DNA of 64,000 bases, taken from assembly GCF_016863655.1 (NCBI RefSeq), contig NZ_BOPH01000009.1, forward strand, positions 1-64,000, in the 5' to 3' direction. This document shows, one piece after another, positions 2,671 through 11,188 of the stretch (positions within the stretch are counted from its first letter, which is position 1; each line of letters starts with the position of its first letter). The position numbers and the translations under genes are program-made. The stretch is from Virgisporangium ochraceum. GTDB lineage: Bacteria; Actinomycetota; Actinomycetes; Mycobacteriales; Micromonosporaceae. The notes beneath the pieces were generated by a model. That model was not told where the DNA came from. It made no database searches and saw nothing but the letters and a program-made list of their open reading frames with translations.

Positions 2671-4176
2671 ATGGAAACCAATCTCGCCCGCCTCGCAGAG
2701 TTGGCCCACGATCGGCTGGGCGACCATCCGTCGCTGTTCTTCGAGGGCACCTGGCACTCGTCCCACCGGATGCACGAACGGAGCCAGCACCTCGCGCACG
2801 GCCTGGTGCGGCTCGGCATCGCCCCCGGCGACCGGGTGGTGGTCATCATGGCGAACGCCCCCGAGGTCACCATCCTGTACCACGCGATCTGGCGGGCCGG
2901 CGCCGCCGTCACGCCGGTCGTCTTCCTGGTCACCGCCCCCGAGCTGCGGCACATCATCGACGACTCCGGTGCCACGGCCGTCTTCACCACCCCGGAGATC
3001 CTGCCGAAGGTCGTGGAGGCGTTGGAGGGCCGGTCACTGCCCGTCGTGGTCCTGGGAGAAGCCGATGGGACCCACGTGAGCTTCGCCGATCTGGAGAAGG
3101 ACACCGAGGTCCTCCCGATCGTCGACCGGTCCCCCGACGACCTCGCCGCCCTGATGTACACGGGCGGCACCACCGGCCGGAGCAAGGGCGTCGCGCTCTC
3201 GCACGAGAACCTCGCCTACTCGGGCAAGGCGTCGCGGGCGCGCAGCCACGTCGACGGGATCACCCGGGGGCAGATCTCGCTGCCGCTGTCGCACGCGTTC
3301 GGACTGCTGGTGACCGTCGGCGCGATGCACGTCCCGGAAGCGGGTTCGACGGTGCTGCAGCGCTGGTTCGAGCCGAAGTCGTTCCTCGACCTGGCCGTGG
3401 AGCACCGGAGCCAGACGTTCGCGGTCGTGCCGTCGATGCTCGCGATGATGCTGCAGTTCCCACTTGAGGAGCTGGACCTCAGCGAGCTGCGGTACGTCTA
3501 CTCGGGAGCCGCACCACTGTCGCCGGCCGTCCGGGAGGACTTCGAGCGGCGCGTCCCGTCGGTCACCGTGATGGAGGGGTACGGCTGCACCGAGACCGGC
3601 GGCATCGTCAGCGGCACGCCGCCGCTGGAGCCGCGGCCGGGCACGGTGGGCAAGGTCGTCGACGACGTCGAGCTGCGCATAGTGGGTCCCGACGGCACCG
3701 ACGTGCCGGCCGGCGAGGACGGCGAGATCGTGGTGCGCGGGCCGAACGTCATGCGCGGGTACTGGCGGGGTGAGCCGCTCGGCGACGGCGGCTGGTTCCA
3801 CACCGGTGACGTGGGCCGCCTCGACAGCGACGGCTATCTCACGATCGTCGACCGTATCAAGGACCTGATCATCCGCGGCGGTTACAACGTGTATCCGCGC
3901 GACGTCGAGGACGCGCTCCTCGCCCACCCGCAGGTGTCGATGGCCGCCGTGGTCGGCCGGCCCGACCCGCGCCTCGGCGAGGAGGTCGTCGCGTTCGTCT
4001 CGCTCGCCGAGGGCGCTTCGGTGGGTGAGGAGGAGCTGATCGCGTTCACGAAGGAGCGGCTGGCGGCGCACAAGTACCCGCGCAGCGTCACGATCGTGCC
4101 GGCGATCCCGCTCACGTCGGTCGGAAAGCTCGACCGCAAGCGGCTGCGGGCGACGGTCAAGGCCGACGCCGACTGA
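2671..4176 (+). CDS. Acyl-CoA synthetase (AMP-binding enzyme)
   Basis: A 501-aa ANL-superfamily ligase that would activate a carboxylic acid, probably a fatty or aryl acid, to its CoA ester via an acyl-adenylate. Visible core motifs: the P-loop A3 YTGGTTGRSKG (residues 163-173), the A5 segment EGYGCTE, the hinge DRIKDLIIRGGYNVYP with the A8 pattern, and the A10 lysine in PLTSVGKLDRKRLR. Full family length. A GGGAG element lies 7 nt before the ATG. It diverges from a thioesterase and converges with the solute-binding gene, six bases apart. Acid substrate unknown; the short N-terminus and absence of extra domains fit medium/long-chain or aryl ligases. Confidence 0.9.
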   Translation: METNLARLAELAHDRLGDHPSLFFEGTWHSSHRMHERSQHLAHGLVRLGIAPGDRVVVIMANAPEVTILYHAIWRAGAAVTPVVFLVTAPELRHIIDDSGATAVFTTPEILPKVVEALEGRSLPVVVLGEADGTHVSFADLEKDTEVLPIVDRSPDDLAALMYTGGTTGRSKGVALSHENLAYSGKASRARSHVDGITRGQISLPLSHAFGLLVTVGAMHVPEAGSTVLQRWFEPKSFLDLAVEHRSQTFAVVPSMLAMMLQFPLEELDLSELRYVYSGAAPLSPAVREDFERRVPSVTVMEGYGCTETGGIVSGTPPLEPRPGTVGKVVDDVELRIVGPDGTDVPAGEDGEIVVRGPNVMRGYWRGEPLGDGGWFHTGDVGRLDSDGYLTIVDRIKDLIIRGGYNVYPRDVEDALLAHPQVSMAAVVGRPDPRLGEEVVAFVSLAEGASVGEEELIAFTKERLAAHKYPRSVTIVPAIPLTSVGKLDRKRLRATVKADAD

Positions 4177-4182
4177 CGGGCC

Positions 4183-5190
4183 TCAGGCCGTCGGCACCAG
4201 GTCGAACGCCGCGATCCGGTCCGGGGTGAGCCCGGGCCGGACCAGGCCGATGCTCTGCACCACCGCGATGCAGCGGGCCATCCGGGCCTCATCGAGGTGG
4301 CCGAGCACGGGTGCGCCGCCGCGCACGTAGGTGACGGTCTGCCGCACCTCCGCGGCGGCGACCTCGGCCCGGTAGGTCGGGTTGTGCTTCGCCATGACCC
4401 GACCCGCCGCGTCGGGGTTGTCGAGGGTCCATCGCATTCCGCGCAGCGACGCGTCCCGGAACCGGCGTACCAGGCCGGGGTTCCGCTCGATGAGGCTCGT
4501 CGACGCGCCGATCGCATTGCCGTACAGGTCCCGCATGACGTCGGAGTACGGCAGCATCGTCACCGACTGCTTCGCGGCCGCCTCCAGCGCGGGCCGGCCC
4601 ACCACGATCTCGGTCGACGCGTCGAGCTGTCCGCTGAGCAGCGCCGGCCGGATCAGCGGCGGCGCCAGCGACACCCACCTGACCGTCGCCTCGTCGAGGC
4701 CCGCGAGGCGGGCGTAGGCCGGGAAGATCGTCTTGTTGACGCCGCCCTCCGAGTAGCCGATCCGCTTGCCGGCCAGGTCGCGTGGCGAGGCGATGTTCGC
4801 CGCCGGCAACGCGACGATGCACGACACCGTGAGCTGGTAGATCGCGGCGAACACCCGGAAGTCGGTCAGCCTGCCGCCGTCGATCTCGAGCAGCCCGCCG
4901 GTGATGTCGATCGTCGCGAACTGGGCCGTGTCGCGGGCCAGGTACTGGAGGTTGCCGCGGGTGCCGACCCCGGGCACCACCGTGACGTTCAGCCCCGCGT
5001 CGCGGTAGAAGCCGTTCTCGATCGCGGCGAACACGTACGAGTCCTGACCGGTGATGTTGAACCCGGTCACGAACGTGACGTCCTCGACCTTCCCGGTGCC
5101 GGGCTTCGGCCTGTTCTCCTCCTTGCCGCACCCGGCGAGGGTCGCGGCCGCACCGAGGTTGGTCAGCATCGATCGACGGGTGAGCACCAC
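4183..5190 (-). CDS. NMT1/SsuA-type ABC solute-binding lipoprotein, orphan
   Basis: A 335-aa periplasmic-type binding protein of the NMT1/THI5/SsuA fold, which binds small molecules such as sulfonates, nitrate or pyrimidine precursors outside the membrane. Starting at the GTG at 5190 it gives a twin-arginine signal (TRRSML) and the lipobox TLAGC near residue 20, so it is probably a Tat-exported lipoprotein. The domain begins VTFVTGFNITGQDSYVFAAIENGFYRDAGL. It begins two bases after the stop of the methyltransferase gene and so is likely co-transcribed. No permease or ATPase gene is adjacent, which is unusual; it must borrow a transporter encoded elsewhere or act as a sensor. A start at ATG 5169 would lose the twin arginines. 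Confidence 0.82.
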   Translation of the reverse strand: MVLTRRSMLTNLGAAATLAGCGKEENRPKPGTGKVEDVTFVTGFNITGQDSYVFAAIENGFYRDAGLNVTVVPGVGTRGNLQYLARDTAQFATIDITGGLLEIDGGRLTDFRVFAAIYQLTVSCIVALPAANIASPRDLAGKRIGYSEGGVNKTIFPAYARLAGLDEATVRWVSLAPPLIRPALLSGQLDASTEIVVGRPALEAAAKQSVTMLPYSDVMRDLYGNAIGASTSLIERNPGLVRRFRDASLRGMRWTLDNPDAAGRVMAKHNPTYRAEVAAAEVRQTVTYVRGGAPVLGHLDEARMARCIAVVQSIGLVRPGLTPDRIAAFDLVPTA

Positions 5191-5192
5191 GG

Positions 5193-6005
5193 TCAGCCCC
5201 CGACCGTCTTGTGCCCGATGGTCGACCACGTCAGGTTGCCCATCACCACGACCCGCGGATCGCCCAGCTGCTCCCGCAACGCGTCGAGGTCGGCCGGGTC
5301 GAGGCCGTGCCCGACGAGCTGCTCCCGGACCTGTCCCGACACCTCGATCGGCAACCGGCACCCGGCCGTGCCGCCGGTCCACGACCGCGCCCGCACGACC
5401 GTGCGCACGTCGGCGAGCCTCGCGGCGGCCATCGCCGCGTGCACCCGCACCGACCACGTCGGGTCGTTGCCGGCGGAGCCGAACATGGCCACCAACGCCG
5501 TCTGGTACCGCCGGTACAGCTCCGCGGTCTCCGGCCACGGAGACGACAGCACCACACCGGGACCGGCGGCACCCCACTCCTCGACGACCAGCGCCCCGCC
5601 GGGCGCCAGCAGCCCGGCCAACGCCGGGACCAGGGCGTCGCGGTTGCCCAGGTGCGCGAGCAGCAGCCGGGCGTGCACGAGGTCGAACGGGCCCTCCGGC
5701 AGCGGATCGGTCCGCAGGTCCCGCCGCAGCACCTGCACCTGTTGCCGTGATCGCACCTCGGCCCGCACGAGTCCGGGATCGAGGTCGACGGCCACCACCC
5801 GGCCCCCGGTACCGACCGCGTCGGCGAGCCACCGGGCCACGCTTCCGTTCCCCGCGCCCAGTTCCAGGCAGTGCGCGCCGAGCTGAACCAGTGGTGCGAT
5901 CAGCTCCACAGTGGACTGGTCGAGAACCGCCGACAGGCAGTCGAGCATGCCGCCGGCACCCGGCCGGCCGTTGTCAAGGGTGTATGAGCTAGTAGCTGTT
6001 GTCAT
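5193..6005 (-). CDS. Class I SAM-dependent methyltransferase
   Basis: A 270-aa Rossmann-fold methyltransferase. Motif I LELGAGNGSVA sits around residues 48-58, an acidic ribose-binding residue follows in VVAVDLD, and FDLVHARLLLAHL is motif IV/post-IV. The C-terminal half has no recognisable substrate domain. GGAG lies 9 nt before the ATG. It is the first gene of a two-gene operon with the solute-binding lipoprotein and is divergent from the XRE regulator at 6288, sharing a 282-bp, AT-richer intergenic region. The acceptor is unknown. Confidence 0.85.
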   Translation of the reverse strand: MTTATSSYTLDNGRPGAGGMLDCLSAVLDQSTVELIAPLVQLGAHCLELGAGNGSVARWLADAVGTGGRVVAVDLDPGLVRAEVRSRQQVQVLRRDLRTDPLPEGPFDLVHARLLLAHLGNRDALVPALAGLLAPGGALVVEEWGAAGPGVVLSSPWPETAELYRRYQTALVAMFGSAGNDPTWSVRVHAAMAAARLADVRTVVRARSWTGGTAGCRLPIEVSGQVREQLVGHGLDPADLDALREQLGDPRVVVMGNLTWSTIGHKTVGG

Positions 6006-6244
6006 TTGCTAGTACTCCGTTTCGACGACGACCCGGATCCGGTGACAAAAACAACCCGCGCCGGCCTCGGGGCAGCAAGAAACCCCACGTAGCAGTTCTG
6101 ACGAACCACACGCCGGCGCGATCACCACGCTCGATCAGCGTTGTCGCACCCACCACAAGCATCAACGTTGATTTTTGGAATACAACAGCAGCCGATGGTT
6201 CCTGATCAAAGAAATCTAACGACAACCACCCTTTGCCGTTAAGG

Positions 6245-6287: not shown

Positions 6288-7109
6288 ATGCCCTTGGTAG
6301 GTTCGACCGTTGCGCGCCGGCAGCTGGGCCGGCACCTGCGGCGGCTGCGGCACGGCGCGGGCAAGACCGAGGCCGACGTCGAGGAGGCCAACATCGCGTC
6401 CCGCGTGAAGCTGTGGCGCATCGAGACCGGCAAGGTGGCGGTGAAGGTCGGCGACGTGCGCGGGCTGTGCTGGCTCTACGGCACCGACGCGAAGACCACC
6501 GACACGCTGTCGATGCTCGCCCTGGGCACCCGCGAACACGACTGGTGGGAGGACTACGGCGAGAAGTGGTTCAGCATGCGGCACGGGCTCGAGGAGATCG
6601 CCGACGAGCTGCGGACATACAACACCGAGCTCGTCCACGACCTGCTGCAGACGCCCGACTACACGCGCGCCATCTGCCTGACGACGCACCCCGACGTGAC
6701 CGACGAGCACGCGCGCGGCCAGGTGAAGCTGCAGGTCGAGCGCCAGCAGGTCTTCCTCACGCGCATTCCGCGGCCGCGGCTCGCGGCGGTGCTCGGTGCC
6801 GGGGCGTTGACGCGTCCGGTCGGCGGGCCGGCCGTCATGGCCGACCAGCTCGCGCGCCTGCGCGCCCTGAACCGGCGCGACCACATCGACATCCGCGTCC
6901 TTCCCTGGGACGCCGGCCCGCACCCCGCGATGCGCCTCGGTGCGTTCACGATCCTCGACTTCCACCACGACGACGACCCGGCCGTGGTGCACGCCGAGAC
7001 CCACACCGGCGCGCGCTACCTCGAGAAGCCCGACGAGCTCGCCGAGTACCGGCGGATCTTCGACCTCATCTACCGGAAGACGATGCCGATCGAGAGCTAT
7101 CGAGCCTGA
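6288..7109 (+). CDS. XRE-family regulator with DUF5753 domain
   Basis: A 273-aa DNA-binding protein: an N-terminal helix-turn-helix (residues about 8-60, GRHLRRLRHGAGKTEADVEE) followed by the DUF5753 ligand/partner domain (EHDWWEDYGEKW onward, with ARGQVKLQVERQQVF and HPAMRLGAFTILDF). This architecture is an actinomycete speciality and is usually followed by a small DUF397 partner; none is encoded here. GGGGGAAG precedes the ATG. The last 44 bp overlap the convergent ArsR-type gene. Likely controls itself and the divergent methyltransferase/lipoprotein operon. Confidence 0.88.
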   Translation: MPLVGSTVARRQLGRHLRRLRHGAGKTEADVEEANIASRVKLWRIETGKVAVKVGDVRGLCWLYGTDAKTTDTLSMLALGTREHDWWEDYGEKWFSMRHGLEEIADELRTYNTELVHDLLQTPDYTRAICLTTHPDVTDEHARGQVKLQVERQQVFLTRIPRPRLAAVLGAGALTRPVGGPAVMADQLARLRALNRRDHIDIRVLPWDAGPHPAMRLGAFTILDFHHDDDPAVVHAETHTGARYLEKPDELAEYRRIFDLIYRKTMPIESYRA

Positions 7110-7854: not shown

Positions 7855-7870
7855 CGCCTAGCGTCGGCAC

Positions 7871-8596
7871 ATGATCGAGGTTCTCGCCGACGACGAGCGG
7901 TACCGGATGCCGCCGGTACCACCGGCTCCGTCAGGCATCGGATGGTTGCGGGCCAGCGTGGCCCGGTTCAGTGACGGGCCGGCGCACCGGCGTCGCCGCG
8001 CGTACGCGGTCGCGATGCTCGACCGGCTCGACCCGGCGGCGCTCGCCCGGGACGCGGCCGCCGAGACCGGCGCGGTGCTGGAACGCATCGCCGCGGCGGG
8101 CACCGGCCGGGAACCGGTGGATCTGATGTCGGCCGTTGCCCGGCCGGTGCCGGTCGCCGTGCTCGGCCGCGCTCTCGCGGTCCCGGACGACGATCTGACA
8201 GCACGGGTCGCGGCGGCGGCGCGGGCCTACCAGCCCGACCACGACGGTGGCCGGGACGCCGCCCGGCGCGCCGACGCGGCCGTGGACGCGCTCGCGGCCG
8301 GCGACCGGAGCGAGGGGTCGGCGGCGCGGATCGGGCTGCTGGTGCAGGCGTGCGAGGCGACCGCGGCGCTGGTGCGCAACGGGCTGCGGCACGGATCGGT
8401 GCAGGCCGCGCTGCGCGACGACCCGCCGGTGCCGCGGACCCGGCGGGTGCGGAACGGGGCGGTCGTGCCGGTCGAGCTCCGCGGACATCCGTTCGGAGCC
8501 GGCCCGCACGAGTGCCCGGGACGGGCGCACGCGGTCGCCATTGCATCGGTTATGGTCGATTTACTATGGCCACGGGCCTTTTTCTTCCGTTACTGA
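7871..8596 (+). CDS. Short cytochrome P450-like protein
   Basis: A 241-aa protein with the P450 heme-thiolate loop FGAGPHECPGRAHAVAIA near its C-terminus (consensus FGxGxHxCxG) and an I-helix-like LLVQACEATAALVRNGL upstream. Ordinary P450s are about 400 aa. Here the N-terminal half is mostly missing, and the K-helix ExxR motif expected between the I-helix and the cysteine is absent: after the I-helix comes VQAALRDDPPVPRTRRV, directly joined to the region before the heme loop. Reading frame and codon use look intact, so it is not a recent pseudogene. TAGCGT at 7859-7864 suggests a leaderless mRNA starting at the ATG. It may bind heme without being a normal monooxygenase. The ArsR gene upstream is its likely regulator. 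Confidence 0.7.
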   Translation: MIEVLADDERYRMPPVPPAPSGIGWLRASVARFSDGPAHRRRRAYAVAMLDRLDPAALARDAAAETGAVLERIAAAGTGREPVDLMSAVARPVPVAVLGRALAVPDDDLTARVAAAARAYQPDHDGGRDAARRADAAVDALAAGDRSEGSAARIGLLVQACEATAALVRNGLRHGSVQAALRDDPPVPRTRRVRNGAVVPVELRGHPFGAGPHECPGRAHAVAIASVMVDLLWPRAFFFRY

Positions 8597-8614: not shown

Positions 8615-11188
8615 ATGGTTGTGACAGCGACCATGCAAAAAGTCCCGATCCGTGGGCGCGCGGCCGACCAGCGCGTGCTCGACGCCCTCCTGCGCCGCGC
8701 GGCCGGCGGACGCGGTGGAGCGCTGCTGATCCGCGGCGAGCCCGGCACGGGAAAGTCGACCCTCCTGCGGCACGTCGCCGGCGCCGCCACCGGCACCGTG
8801 CTGCGCACCGCCGGCCTCGCCGACGAGGCGGCACTGCCCTACGCCGCGCTGCACCGGCTGCTCCAGCCGCTGTCCGACCGCCCGCCCGACCTGGTCGAGC
8901 GGGCCATCTCGGGCGGCGGCTGCCCGCCCGAGGACCGGGTGCGGCTGTCGATGGCCGTGCTGGACCTGCTCGCCTCGTCGGCACCCGTGGTCTGCTGTGT
9001 CGACGACGCGCACCTGCTCGACCCCGCCTCCGCCGACACGCTCGGGTTCGTCGCGCGACGGGTCGGCCCGCACCGCGTCGCGGTCGTGTTCACCGCCGGG
9101 GGTGACGGCGCGGCCGACGACCCGGTGCCCGGGGTCCCGTGCCGGTGGATCTCCGGGCTGGCCCAACCCGACAGCCGCGCCCTGCTCGGCGACGTCGTGC
9201 CGGGCGGGCTGCCCACCGACGTGGCCGGCGCGCTCGTCGACCTCGCCCGGGGCAACCCGCAGGCGCTCGTCGACCTGGCGCGGTCGCTGACTCCAGCCCA
9301 GTGCCGCGGCGAGGCGCCGCTGCCCCGCGGCCTGCCGCTCGACAGCCCGCTGCGCCGCGCCTACCGCGCGCAACTGGCACTGCTCCCGGCCGACACCCGC
9401 TGGCTGCTGCTGCTCGCGGCGGCCGACGACCACCTCGACGCCACCGAACTGGTACGGGCCGCGCGCGCCAGCGGCACCGACCTCACCGCGCTCGCGGCGG
9501 CCGAACTGTGCGGCGTGCTGCGCGTCCACGGCGACCGCCTGACGTTCCCGCGGCCGCTCGCCCGCACGGTGACCTACGACGAGGCCCCGATGGGTCAGCG
9601 GCAGGCCGCCCACCGGCTGCTGGCCGCGACGCTCGACCCGGTCCGGCACCGGCTGCGGGTCGCGCTGCACCGGGTCGCCGGCGCCACCGAACCCACGGCC
9701 GCCGACGCCGACGACCTGGCCGCCTGCGGCAGCGGCTCGGTCGAGGCGCTGGAGCGGTCCGCCGACCTGACCACCGATCCCGCGCTGGCGTCGGCGCGTC
9801 TGGTCGCCGCGGCCCGGCACGCGTGGACCGCCGGCCAGCCGCACCGCGCCCGGATGCTGCTGCGCCGGACCGCCCAGGGTGGGGCGGCCGACCTCCTCGC
9901 CGGCGAGATCGAACTGCGGTCCGGTCCGCCGGCCAGCGCGCTGCGCACGCTCCTGACCGCCGCCGACCGGCTGCCACCGGCGCTCGCGGCGCGGGCGCTG
10001 GCGTTCGCCGGCGACGCGTTGTGCTACGCGGGCAACCACGCCCGCCTGCCCGGCCTGGCCCGGCGCGCCGCGGCCCTGCCCGCGGAGCTGCCCGCGGAGC
10101 TGCCCGTGCGGTACCTGGCGGGGATGGCCGCGATGCTGCGCGGCCGGCACCGCGACGCGGTGACCGACCTGCGGCGGGTGGTGGAGCTGGGCTCCCCGTC
10201 GAACGACCCGACCGAGCTCATCTGGGCCGCCACCGCCTGCCTGCTCCTCGCCGACGACGCCGGCGCCGACCACCTCGCCGGGCGTGCCGCCGAGGCCGGT
10301 GACGTCTCCGCGCGGCCGCGGGCGCTGGAGATCCGCGCGTACGCCGAGTACTGGCTGGGCCGGCTCGACGCCGCGCAGACCACCGCGCTCGACGGGATGC
10401 GCGAAGCGGAAGCGGCCGCGCAGGACAACGTCGCCGACACGTTCGCCGGGCTGCTCGCCATGATGGCGGCGCGGCGGGGTGACGGGGCGGCCTGCCGCCG
10501 GTACGCGGCCCTGGCGACCCGCCGGCCCAGCGCCGACCTGATGAACCGGCCGCACGCGCTGAGCGAGTGGGCGCTCGCGCTGCTCGACCTCGCCGCCGAC
10601 CGCCCCGCCGACGCCGCCGCGCGCATCACGACGATCGCCGACCCGCGGACCGGGCGCGGCCAGCTCGTCGTGTACATGATGGCCACCCCCGACCTGGCCG
10701 AGGCCGCACCGGTCGACGTCGGCGCGTTCACAGAATGGGCCGAGGGCACGGGCGACCCGCTGCGGCGCGCCCTCGCCGCCCGGTGCCGTGCGCTGGCCCA
10801 CCGCGGAGACGGACCGGAGACGCACTTCCGTGAGGCGCTGCGGCTGCACCGGGCCACCGGCAACGACTTCGAACGGGCCCGTACCGAAATGCTGTCCCGC
10901 GGGCGCACCCAGGTTCGCAGTGCCCTTGCCACGTTCGAGCGGCTGGGGCTCGACGCGTGGGCGGCCCGCGCCCGCGACGCGCTGCGCGCCGCCGACGAGG
11001 ACCCGACGACGGGCACCCTCACCGCGCAGCAGTTGCAGATCGCGCGCATGGTGGCGGCCGGCGCGACCAACCGGGAGGTCGCCGCGCAGCTCTACCTGAG
11101 CACCCGCACCGTCGACCACCACATGCGCAACATCTTCGTCCGGCTGGGGATCCGGTCGCGGATCGAGCTCGCGAAGCTGTTCTCCTAA
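8615..11188 (+). CDS. Large ATP-binding LuxR-family regulator (LAL type)
   Basis: An 857-aa regulator: AAA/NTPase module at the N-terminus with Walker [10 protein letters not shown] (residues 41-49) and Walker B-like VVCCVDDAH (about 126-134), a long TPR-like helical middle, and a C-terminal LuxR helix-turn-helix ([36 protein letters not shown], split here only by position). Such regulators activate catabolic or secondary-metabolite genes in response to an unknown ligand. The stop codon TAA (11186-11188) overlaps the stop of the convergent aceB. Its target cannot be named; nearest candidates are the P450-like gene upstream and the glc operon. Confidence 0.88.

Follow-up and report, generated by a model that had tools for sequence, protein, structure and literature searches.

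The window, that is the whole 64,000-nucleotide stretch of DNA that was analysed, carries the gene for a miniature cytochrome P450-like protein (mini-P450), whose ATG frame was found exactly as the initial annotation had described it. Divergent to this gene stands one for an ArsR-family regulator, a dyad and a putative promoter lie between the two, and a gene for a large LuxR-type regulator begins shortly behind the mini-P450 stop codon (Table 1).

Table 1. Features of the mini-P450 locus and of two fusion genes (positions in the window, or in the loci L124 and L125 for the fusions; fractions of 40 refer to aligned mini-P450 rows).
Feature	Position	Strand	Evidence
ArsR-family regulator, divergent, 246 aa	7066-7806	-	domain matches; relatives of 44-79% identity beside 25/41 short-family loci
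Operator dyad TTCGGCGGGCGCCGAA	7831-7846		same place in 23/24 loci; looser pattern in 14/17 more
-10 box TAGCGT, putative leaderless promoter	7859-7864	+	12 bases past operator; TANNNT at -12/-13 in 23/24
Mini-P450, 241 aa	7871-8596	+	ATG ORF; PDB matches, relatives, predicted structure, dN/dS
C-helix His39-Arg43 (HxxxR)	7985-7999	+	His39 in 39/40, Arg43 in 40/40
I-helix Gln159-Thr164 (QACEAT)	8345-8362	+	both 40/40; model helix 148-174
ExxR remnant Ala179-Ala-Leu-Arg182	8405-8416	+	Glu at column in 13/40, E and R in 12/40; model helix 177-183
Arg192	8444-8446	+	39/40
Heme loop FGAGPHECPG with Cys215 (codon 8513-8515)	8492-8521	+	Cys215 in 40/40
LuxR-type regulator, large (AAA_16 + GerE)	8615-11188	+	18 bases past mini-P450 stop; where relatives have PEP mutase
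L124 fusion	4575-6101	-	PF13714 at 252-481
L125 fusion	3837-5144	-	PF13714 at 188-408

Regulator, operator and promoter

The product of the divergent gene contains an ArsR/SmtB winged helix-turn-helix (HTH_20 with 47.5 bits at a cut-off of 27, HTH_5 with 22.9 bits at a cut-off of 22) and reaches 54.2 bits with the NCBIfam ArsR/SmtB model, just below the cut-off of 55. In its N-terminal winged helix it is like ArsR/SmtB-type regulators with a C-terminal extension, and from ArsR/SmtB regulators it differs by its long C-terminal part. The end of the ArsR gene is overlapped by a convergent gene at 6288-7109, which encodes an HTH_31/DUF5753 regulator like the Sco1979 family (187.5 bits at a cut-off of 350).

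The operator dyad extends to a wider one around 7838/7839, in which 15 of 18 positions pair, and the ATG of the mini-P450 gene stands six bases beyond TAGCGT, indicating a leaderless start. A regulator, an operator and a leaderless promoter of its own had all been proposed for this gene, and all three were found in an arrangement that recurs among the relatives. In 23 of 24 loci (the window counted) a TTCG..CGAA dyad starts 40 or 41 bases and a TANNNT box 12 or 13 bases before the start codon, distances that are partly a matter of choice since start codons were picked with the promoter in view, whereas the 12-base spacer between dyad and box is independent of that choice. The exact form TTCGG-N6-CCGAA is present in 20 of the 24; L007, which lacks both dyad and TANNNT, also lacks an ArsR match. 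In a second set of loci, for which a looser pattern was applied and the start codons were chosen by that pattern, the operator was found in 14 of 17 and was absent in L118, L125 and L128. Moreover, of 300 genomes belonging to the same family as the window (f1), 134 contain the exact string of operator and promoter, compared with 7 that contain the reversed control pattern when counted from the table. It occurs only once in the 11.4-Mb genome to which the window belongs, and a wider regulon in this genome was rejected on that ground.

Of the 41 short-family loci other than that of the window, 25 encode a relative of the ArsR protein (44-64% identity; 79% in L051) within 1.5 kb. At three loci with full-length P450s of other groups (L111-L113) neither an operator match nor a PEP mutase match was found, and L112 has a weak ArsR match of 39% about 2.5 kb off. 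On plasmids, ArsR relatives adjoin genes for a short PEP mutase, for a flavin reductase, for an MFS transporter or for NIPSNAP, and with neighbours so varied the regulator alone does not reveal the pathway. One such case is a plasmid of Streptomyces sp. NBC_00184, where a regulator gene of the same type and a short isocitrate lyase/PEP mutase gene diverge from each other (L129:3378-4645) and the stretch that was read has no annotated P450. Our confidence in the pattern of regulation is high.

Sequence, predicted fold and relatives of the mini-P450

The heme loop FxxGxxxCxG with its proximal cysteine (FGAGPHECPG, Cys215) and an I-helix-like segment (LLVQACEATAAL) are both present, in agreement with the initial annotation. 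Further residues of the expected heme surroundings are His39 and Arg43 of the C-helix, which we take to be heme-propionate contacts, Arg192, presumably the counterpart of the heme-propionate arginine of P450cam, and Thr164 in the I-helix, to which we assign a role from general P450 background. Compared with (A/G)Gx(D/E)T, the ACEAT of the window protein has its acid one place earlier, and Ala163 precedes Thr164; the acid column holds 13 Glu, 13 Asp and 14 other residues in the 40 rows, and Thr164 is present in every row.

Two deletions had been proposed, of the K-helix with its ExxR motif and of the N-terminal half. The ExxR glutamate is indeed absent, being replaced by Ala179 to give AALR, but the K-helix is only shortened, as QAALRDDPPVPRTRR keeps Arg182 and Arg192 and residues 177-183 are helical in the model. 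Nor is the N-terminal half absent, because the best-matching PDB stretch pairs residues 32-109 with P450 positions 91-169 and thus starts in the C-helix region; in addition, 235 of the 241 residues of the model align with P450BioI. The losses are distributed along the whole protein. Aligned with the full-length L004 (394 residues from its Met), it is short of about 52 N-terminal and 20 C-terminal residues, of 27 just before and 19 after the I-helix, and of 12 and 23 in the meander region that precedes the Cys loop. The PDB sequence search returned solved P450s with a best E-value of 3.6e-6, the Cys loop forming a second, weak stretch. No Pfam or NCBIfam model scored above its cut-off with the mini-P450 (PF00067 10.6 bits, cut-off 22.8). 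Among five other members, single or fused, with any PF00067 line, L064 and L065 lie above the cut-off and L125, L069 and L052 below it.

AlphaFold2 on a 41-row alignment gave the mini-P450 a model with pLDDT 94.3 and pTM 0.91, and the 50 Foldseek matches listed are P450s throughout, as judged from their titles or from general P450 background. Superposed on P450BioI by VIA-align, the model gave Z 20.1 and 3.4 A for 235 aligned residues. Structure prediction, one of the checks suggested for this protein, therefore yields a P450 fold, in a model that does not include heme. The 187-residue P450 domain of L125, which is devoid of the ExxR segment, is predicted with similar confidence (pLDDT 93.1), its Z of 13.6 over 186 residues against P450BioI being near the level where helical folds can match by arrangement alone. 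In predicted fold, Cys loop and C-helix region the mini-P450 thus resembles full-length bacterial P450s such as P450BioI (3ejb), StaP (2z3u) and CYP154C5 (4j6b), whereas it is about 150-170 residues shorter, has no ExxR and has a smaller meander as well as other reduced peripheral parts. Its descent and predicted fold make it part of a reduced yet conserved P450 branch in which one recognised motif has been lost; we call it P450-derived and claim no P450 activity by this name.

The initial annotation had made its case depend on homologues of the same short length beside ArsR genes, and such relatives exist. A tblastn search of genome contigs at E <= 1e-3 gave 20 loci. L001 and L002, both from Nocardia, and L007, from an actinomycete MAG, encode short proteins; most others matched in part only, L003 (Nocardia) ends at a contig edge, and L004 is full length. 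A family profile at E <= 1e-25 found members in 127 of the 300 f1 genomes, the window's included, with possibly longer P450s in seven of them (G001, G014, G049, G063, G101, G138, G289; E 1e-30 to 1e-42). Of 396 genomes of the phylum, 23 gave a match at 1e-12. Five loci outside f1 were inspected, and those of G566 and G572 (E 1e-42 and 4e-41; the next 3e-24) are short relatives near ArsR and PEP mutase genes. Two named Embleya plasmids also bear a short relative in unannotated surroundings, with no ArsR match, PEP mutase match or operator in the 4-kb flanks. The short family thus occurs in the window's family, in Nocardia, in Embleya and in a few others, and our confidence that it is real is high.

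Gene context was read for 44 loci besides the window. Leaving out the full-length P450s of L111-L113, the partial L003 and the frame-broken L121, 39 loci and the window make up the 40 rows of the conservation set, with L004 as outgroup. In L121 (5587-6400) the mini-P450 of G031 shifts frame near residue 175, either a pseudogene or a sequencing error. Members are 187-346 residues long, and 26 of 40 have at most 261 residues compared with the usual 400. At a mean column identity of 25%, Cys215, Thr164, Gln159, Arg43, Phe208 and Gly209 are invariant, and position 213 is His or Arg in all rows. ExxR, by comparison, is complete in 12 of 40; Glu179 is present in 13, five rows have a gap at that column, and all four letters are gone in four. 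On a tree built without the motif columns the ExxR state changed at least nine times and presence of the motif at least four times, counts taken from a single tree that is resolved in part only, 16 of its 38 inner branches being starred. The longest members (L062, L064, L065; 334-346 residues), which kept ExxR and meander, look like an intermediate stage.

Selection was assessed against the 80%-identical sister L051 (genome G055), with a dN/dS of 0.257 for the mini-P450 as compared with 0.336 for ArsR (on an approximate frame in L051) and 0.215 for LuxR. Nine other mini-P450 pairs gave 0.19-0.42, and pairs without an adjacent PEP mutase on either side (window/L051 with 0.257, L058/L059 with 0.270) are not more relaxed. 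Purifying selection on the mini-P450 is thus supported.

Linkage to a PEP-mutase-superfamily enzyme

In 32 of the 41 short-family loci besides the window a relative of PEP mutase is encoded within 1.5 kb of the mini-P450 (for L003 without a distance test; in L007 upstream). This partner belongs to the PEP mutase/isocitrate lyase superfamily (PF13714, E 6.7e-72 for L001), its nearest solved chain being 2ze3 (DFA0005, E 8.8e-36). D81, E83, E111 and R144, presumably active-site and Mg-site positions, are invariant in 21 of 21 rows. Scans of the 300 f1 genomes, in which each first look scored eight candidates, found both genes in 108, the mini-P450 only in 19, the PEP mutase only in 27 and neither in 146 (Fisher p 3e-35, with related genomes counted as independent). 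Three of the genomes tallied as mini-P450 only at the orthologue cut (G111, G151, G219) nevertheless revealed a partner in other searches. The orthologue lies within 1 kb of the mini-P450 in 99 of the 108 genomes with both, that is in 99 of 127 mini-P450 genomes.

Moreover, the two proteins are fused in frame in L124 (509 residues) and L125. Both fusion genomes are of one genus (g5), of which a third genome (G082, L061) has two separate genes; an alignment for the L125 fusion (A3) was left out, its single-domain rows being seemingly misplaced (identities 21-27%).

Nine genomes hold the two genes apart. Upstream regions were read for six unlinked PEP mutases above the orthologue cut, those of G021, G044 and G101 lying outside this set, and five have the operator (L165, L168, L170, L171 and L172, with an imperfect left half-site in L170 and L171; not L169). 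Two unlinked PEP mutases below the cut, L166 and L185, also have it, as compared with 1 of 17 paralogues. This one paralogue (L190) is in G024, of the window's genus, and has the family operator about 58 bases upstream of the match; it is perhaps a replacement for the orthologue lost in G024.

The window itself has no PEP mutase match at the mini-P450 locus, and its genome holds two paralogues only (E 3.0e-57 and 5.3e-52), both without the operator. The best match in G055 has 5.2e-57, and the weakest orthologue among the matches listed has 6.5e-88. The orthologue is likewise absent from G024 and G055, of the same genus, and from the one-contig genome G139. In the place of the PEP mutase gene the window has the LuxR gene, which may be co-transcribed with the mini-P450; order and 18-base spacing are kept in G055 (L051), and no LuxR match was found behind the mini-P450 of G024. 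No ferredoxin or reductase was found among the four neighbours scanned.

Function of the mini-P450

What could a P450 of this size do? The initial annotation had offered a heme sensor, a heme-binding partner or a stripped enzyme. A stable, regulated, stripped P450 is what short homologues beside ArsR genes, purifying selection and predicted fold point to; the partner enzyme, which shows itself in relatives only, was missing from that interpretation. From linkage and fusions, the protein is more likely to be one component of an enzyme module of two proteins, in the ancestor at least. The reading that we prefer, and consider somewhat better than even, is that of a regulated miniature heme-thiolate protein under ArsR control that forms a two-protein module with the PEP-mutase-superfamily enzyme in the family and has lost its partner in the window's lineage. 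It builds on homology, conservation, selection, predicted fold, the operator and promoter pattern, linkage, fusion and the shared operator.

Briefly, a full-length cytochrome P450 would have been pared down to the mini-P450 by loss of peripheral elements, while a heme cage of C-helix HxxxR, I-helix Q....T, the TRR segment and the Cys loop was kept, and heme binding by the mini-P450 can be assumed with good confidence. The divergent ArsR would bind the dyad just upstream of the leaderless promoter, which it probably overlaps, and repress, so that mini-P450 is made once the ArsR ligand appears. Throughout the family, mini-P450 and PEP-mutase/isocitrate-lyase-superfamily enzyme would act as a module, probably as a physical complex, in which the mini-P450 catalyses an oxidative or peroxidative reaction of a small compound formed or cleaved by the partner; for catalysis and complex formation our confidence is moderate. 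It could even be imagined that the active site is composite, the PEP-mutase barrel replacing the shed substrate-recognition parts and the bare heme-thiolate core oxidising an alpha-oxy acid or phosphonate that is bound to the partner, a doubtful extension that, if true, would mean a P450 borrowing its substrate pocket from another protein. Counted against the preferred module are the 19 of 127 mini-P450 genomes without PEP mutase at the orthologue level, and the loss of meander residues and the Glu, which would change the side that usually meets the redox partner. The PF00067 score below its cut-off, the displaced acid of the I-helix, the lack of ferredoxin and reductase genes among the neighbours scanned, and L007 with neither operator nor ArsR match likewise speak against it. 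In the window's lineage, with the orthologous partner lost, the protein may work by itself, or together with a partner paralogue or the product of the LuxR gene. That the genome has no orthologue makes any role of a partner in this organism putative, and this weakens the module reading most for the window.

Alternatively, the mini-P450 could be a heme-based sensor or regulatory subunit without catalysis, whose heme ligation or redox state modulates the PEP mutase or the ArsR and LuxR regulators. The fusion to an enzyme, the reduced proximal face and the position 18 bases upstream of a large LuxR-type regulator gene, an order kept in G055, would fit such a role. However, the invariant Gln159 and Thr164 of the distal I-helix suggest work at the distal side, and among the contexts searched with the LuxR protein only the window and L051 have LuxR beside a mini-P450, so that we regard a sensor as unlikely. 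Less probable still is a heme-free scaffold using its cysteine for another purpose: ExxR is dispensable in the family and the window protein and several members fall below the Pfam cut-off, yet Cys215, Arg43, the His or Arg at 213 and, with one exception in 40 rows, Arg192 are kept at so low a mean identity. A decaying P450 fragment or pseudogene, as which P450 surveys would class a short protein without ExxR (such proteins are put aside in PMC9143469 and PMC6408508) and for which the broken frame of L121 could be cited, is very improbable given relatives in 127 of 300 genomes, a dN/dS like that of the neighbours and an operator and promoter held at one spacing, and it is homologues, selection and conserved promoter that exclude a frameshift, of which the initial annotation had seen no sign.

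CYP157 proteins, which are full-length, offer a precedent for the loss of the motif. According to PMC3599690, which cites Rupasinghe et al. (2006), CYP157 P450s are without canonical EXXR, the Arg being absent (EVLW/EQSLW), and are linked to conservons. With this precedent, ExxR is not absolute for P450 membership. Compared by described motif, CYP157 loses the Arg, whereas the mini-P450 family loses the Glu (AALR in the window) and in 4 of 40 rows the whole motif. Since two genome surveys (PMC9143469 and PMC6408508) class short or one-motif P450 matches as fragments or pseudo-P450s and put them aside, such a family can be overlooked by design. In the literature searched, mostly outside subscription journals, no paper on short ArsR- or PEP-mutase-linked P450s was found, nor an operon or fusion of a PEP mutase superfamily enzyme with a P450, and a half-size P450 family has apparently been overlooked so far. 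Its members are natural, conserved P450-derived proteins that display what evolution could strip from a heme-thiolate core, ExxR among it, and the link to PEP mutase makes the role of the mini-P450 testable.
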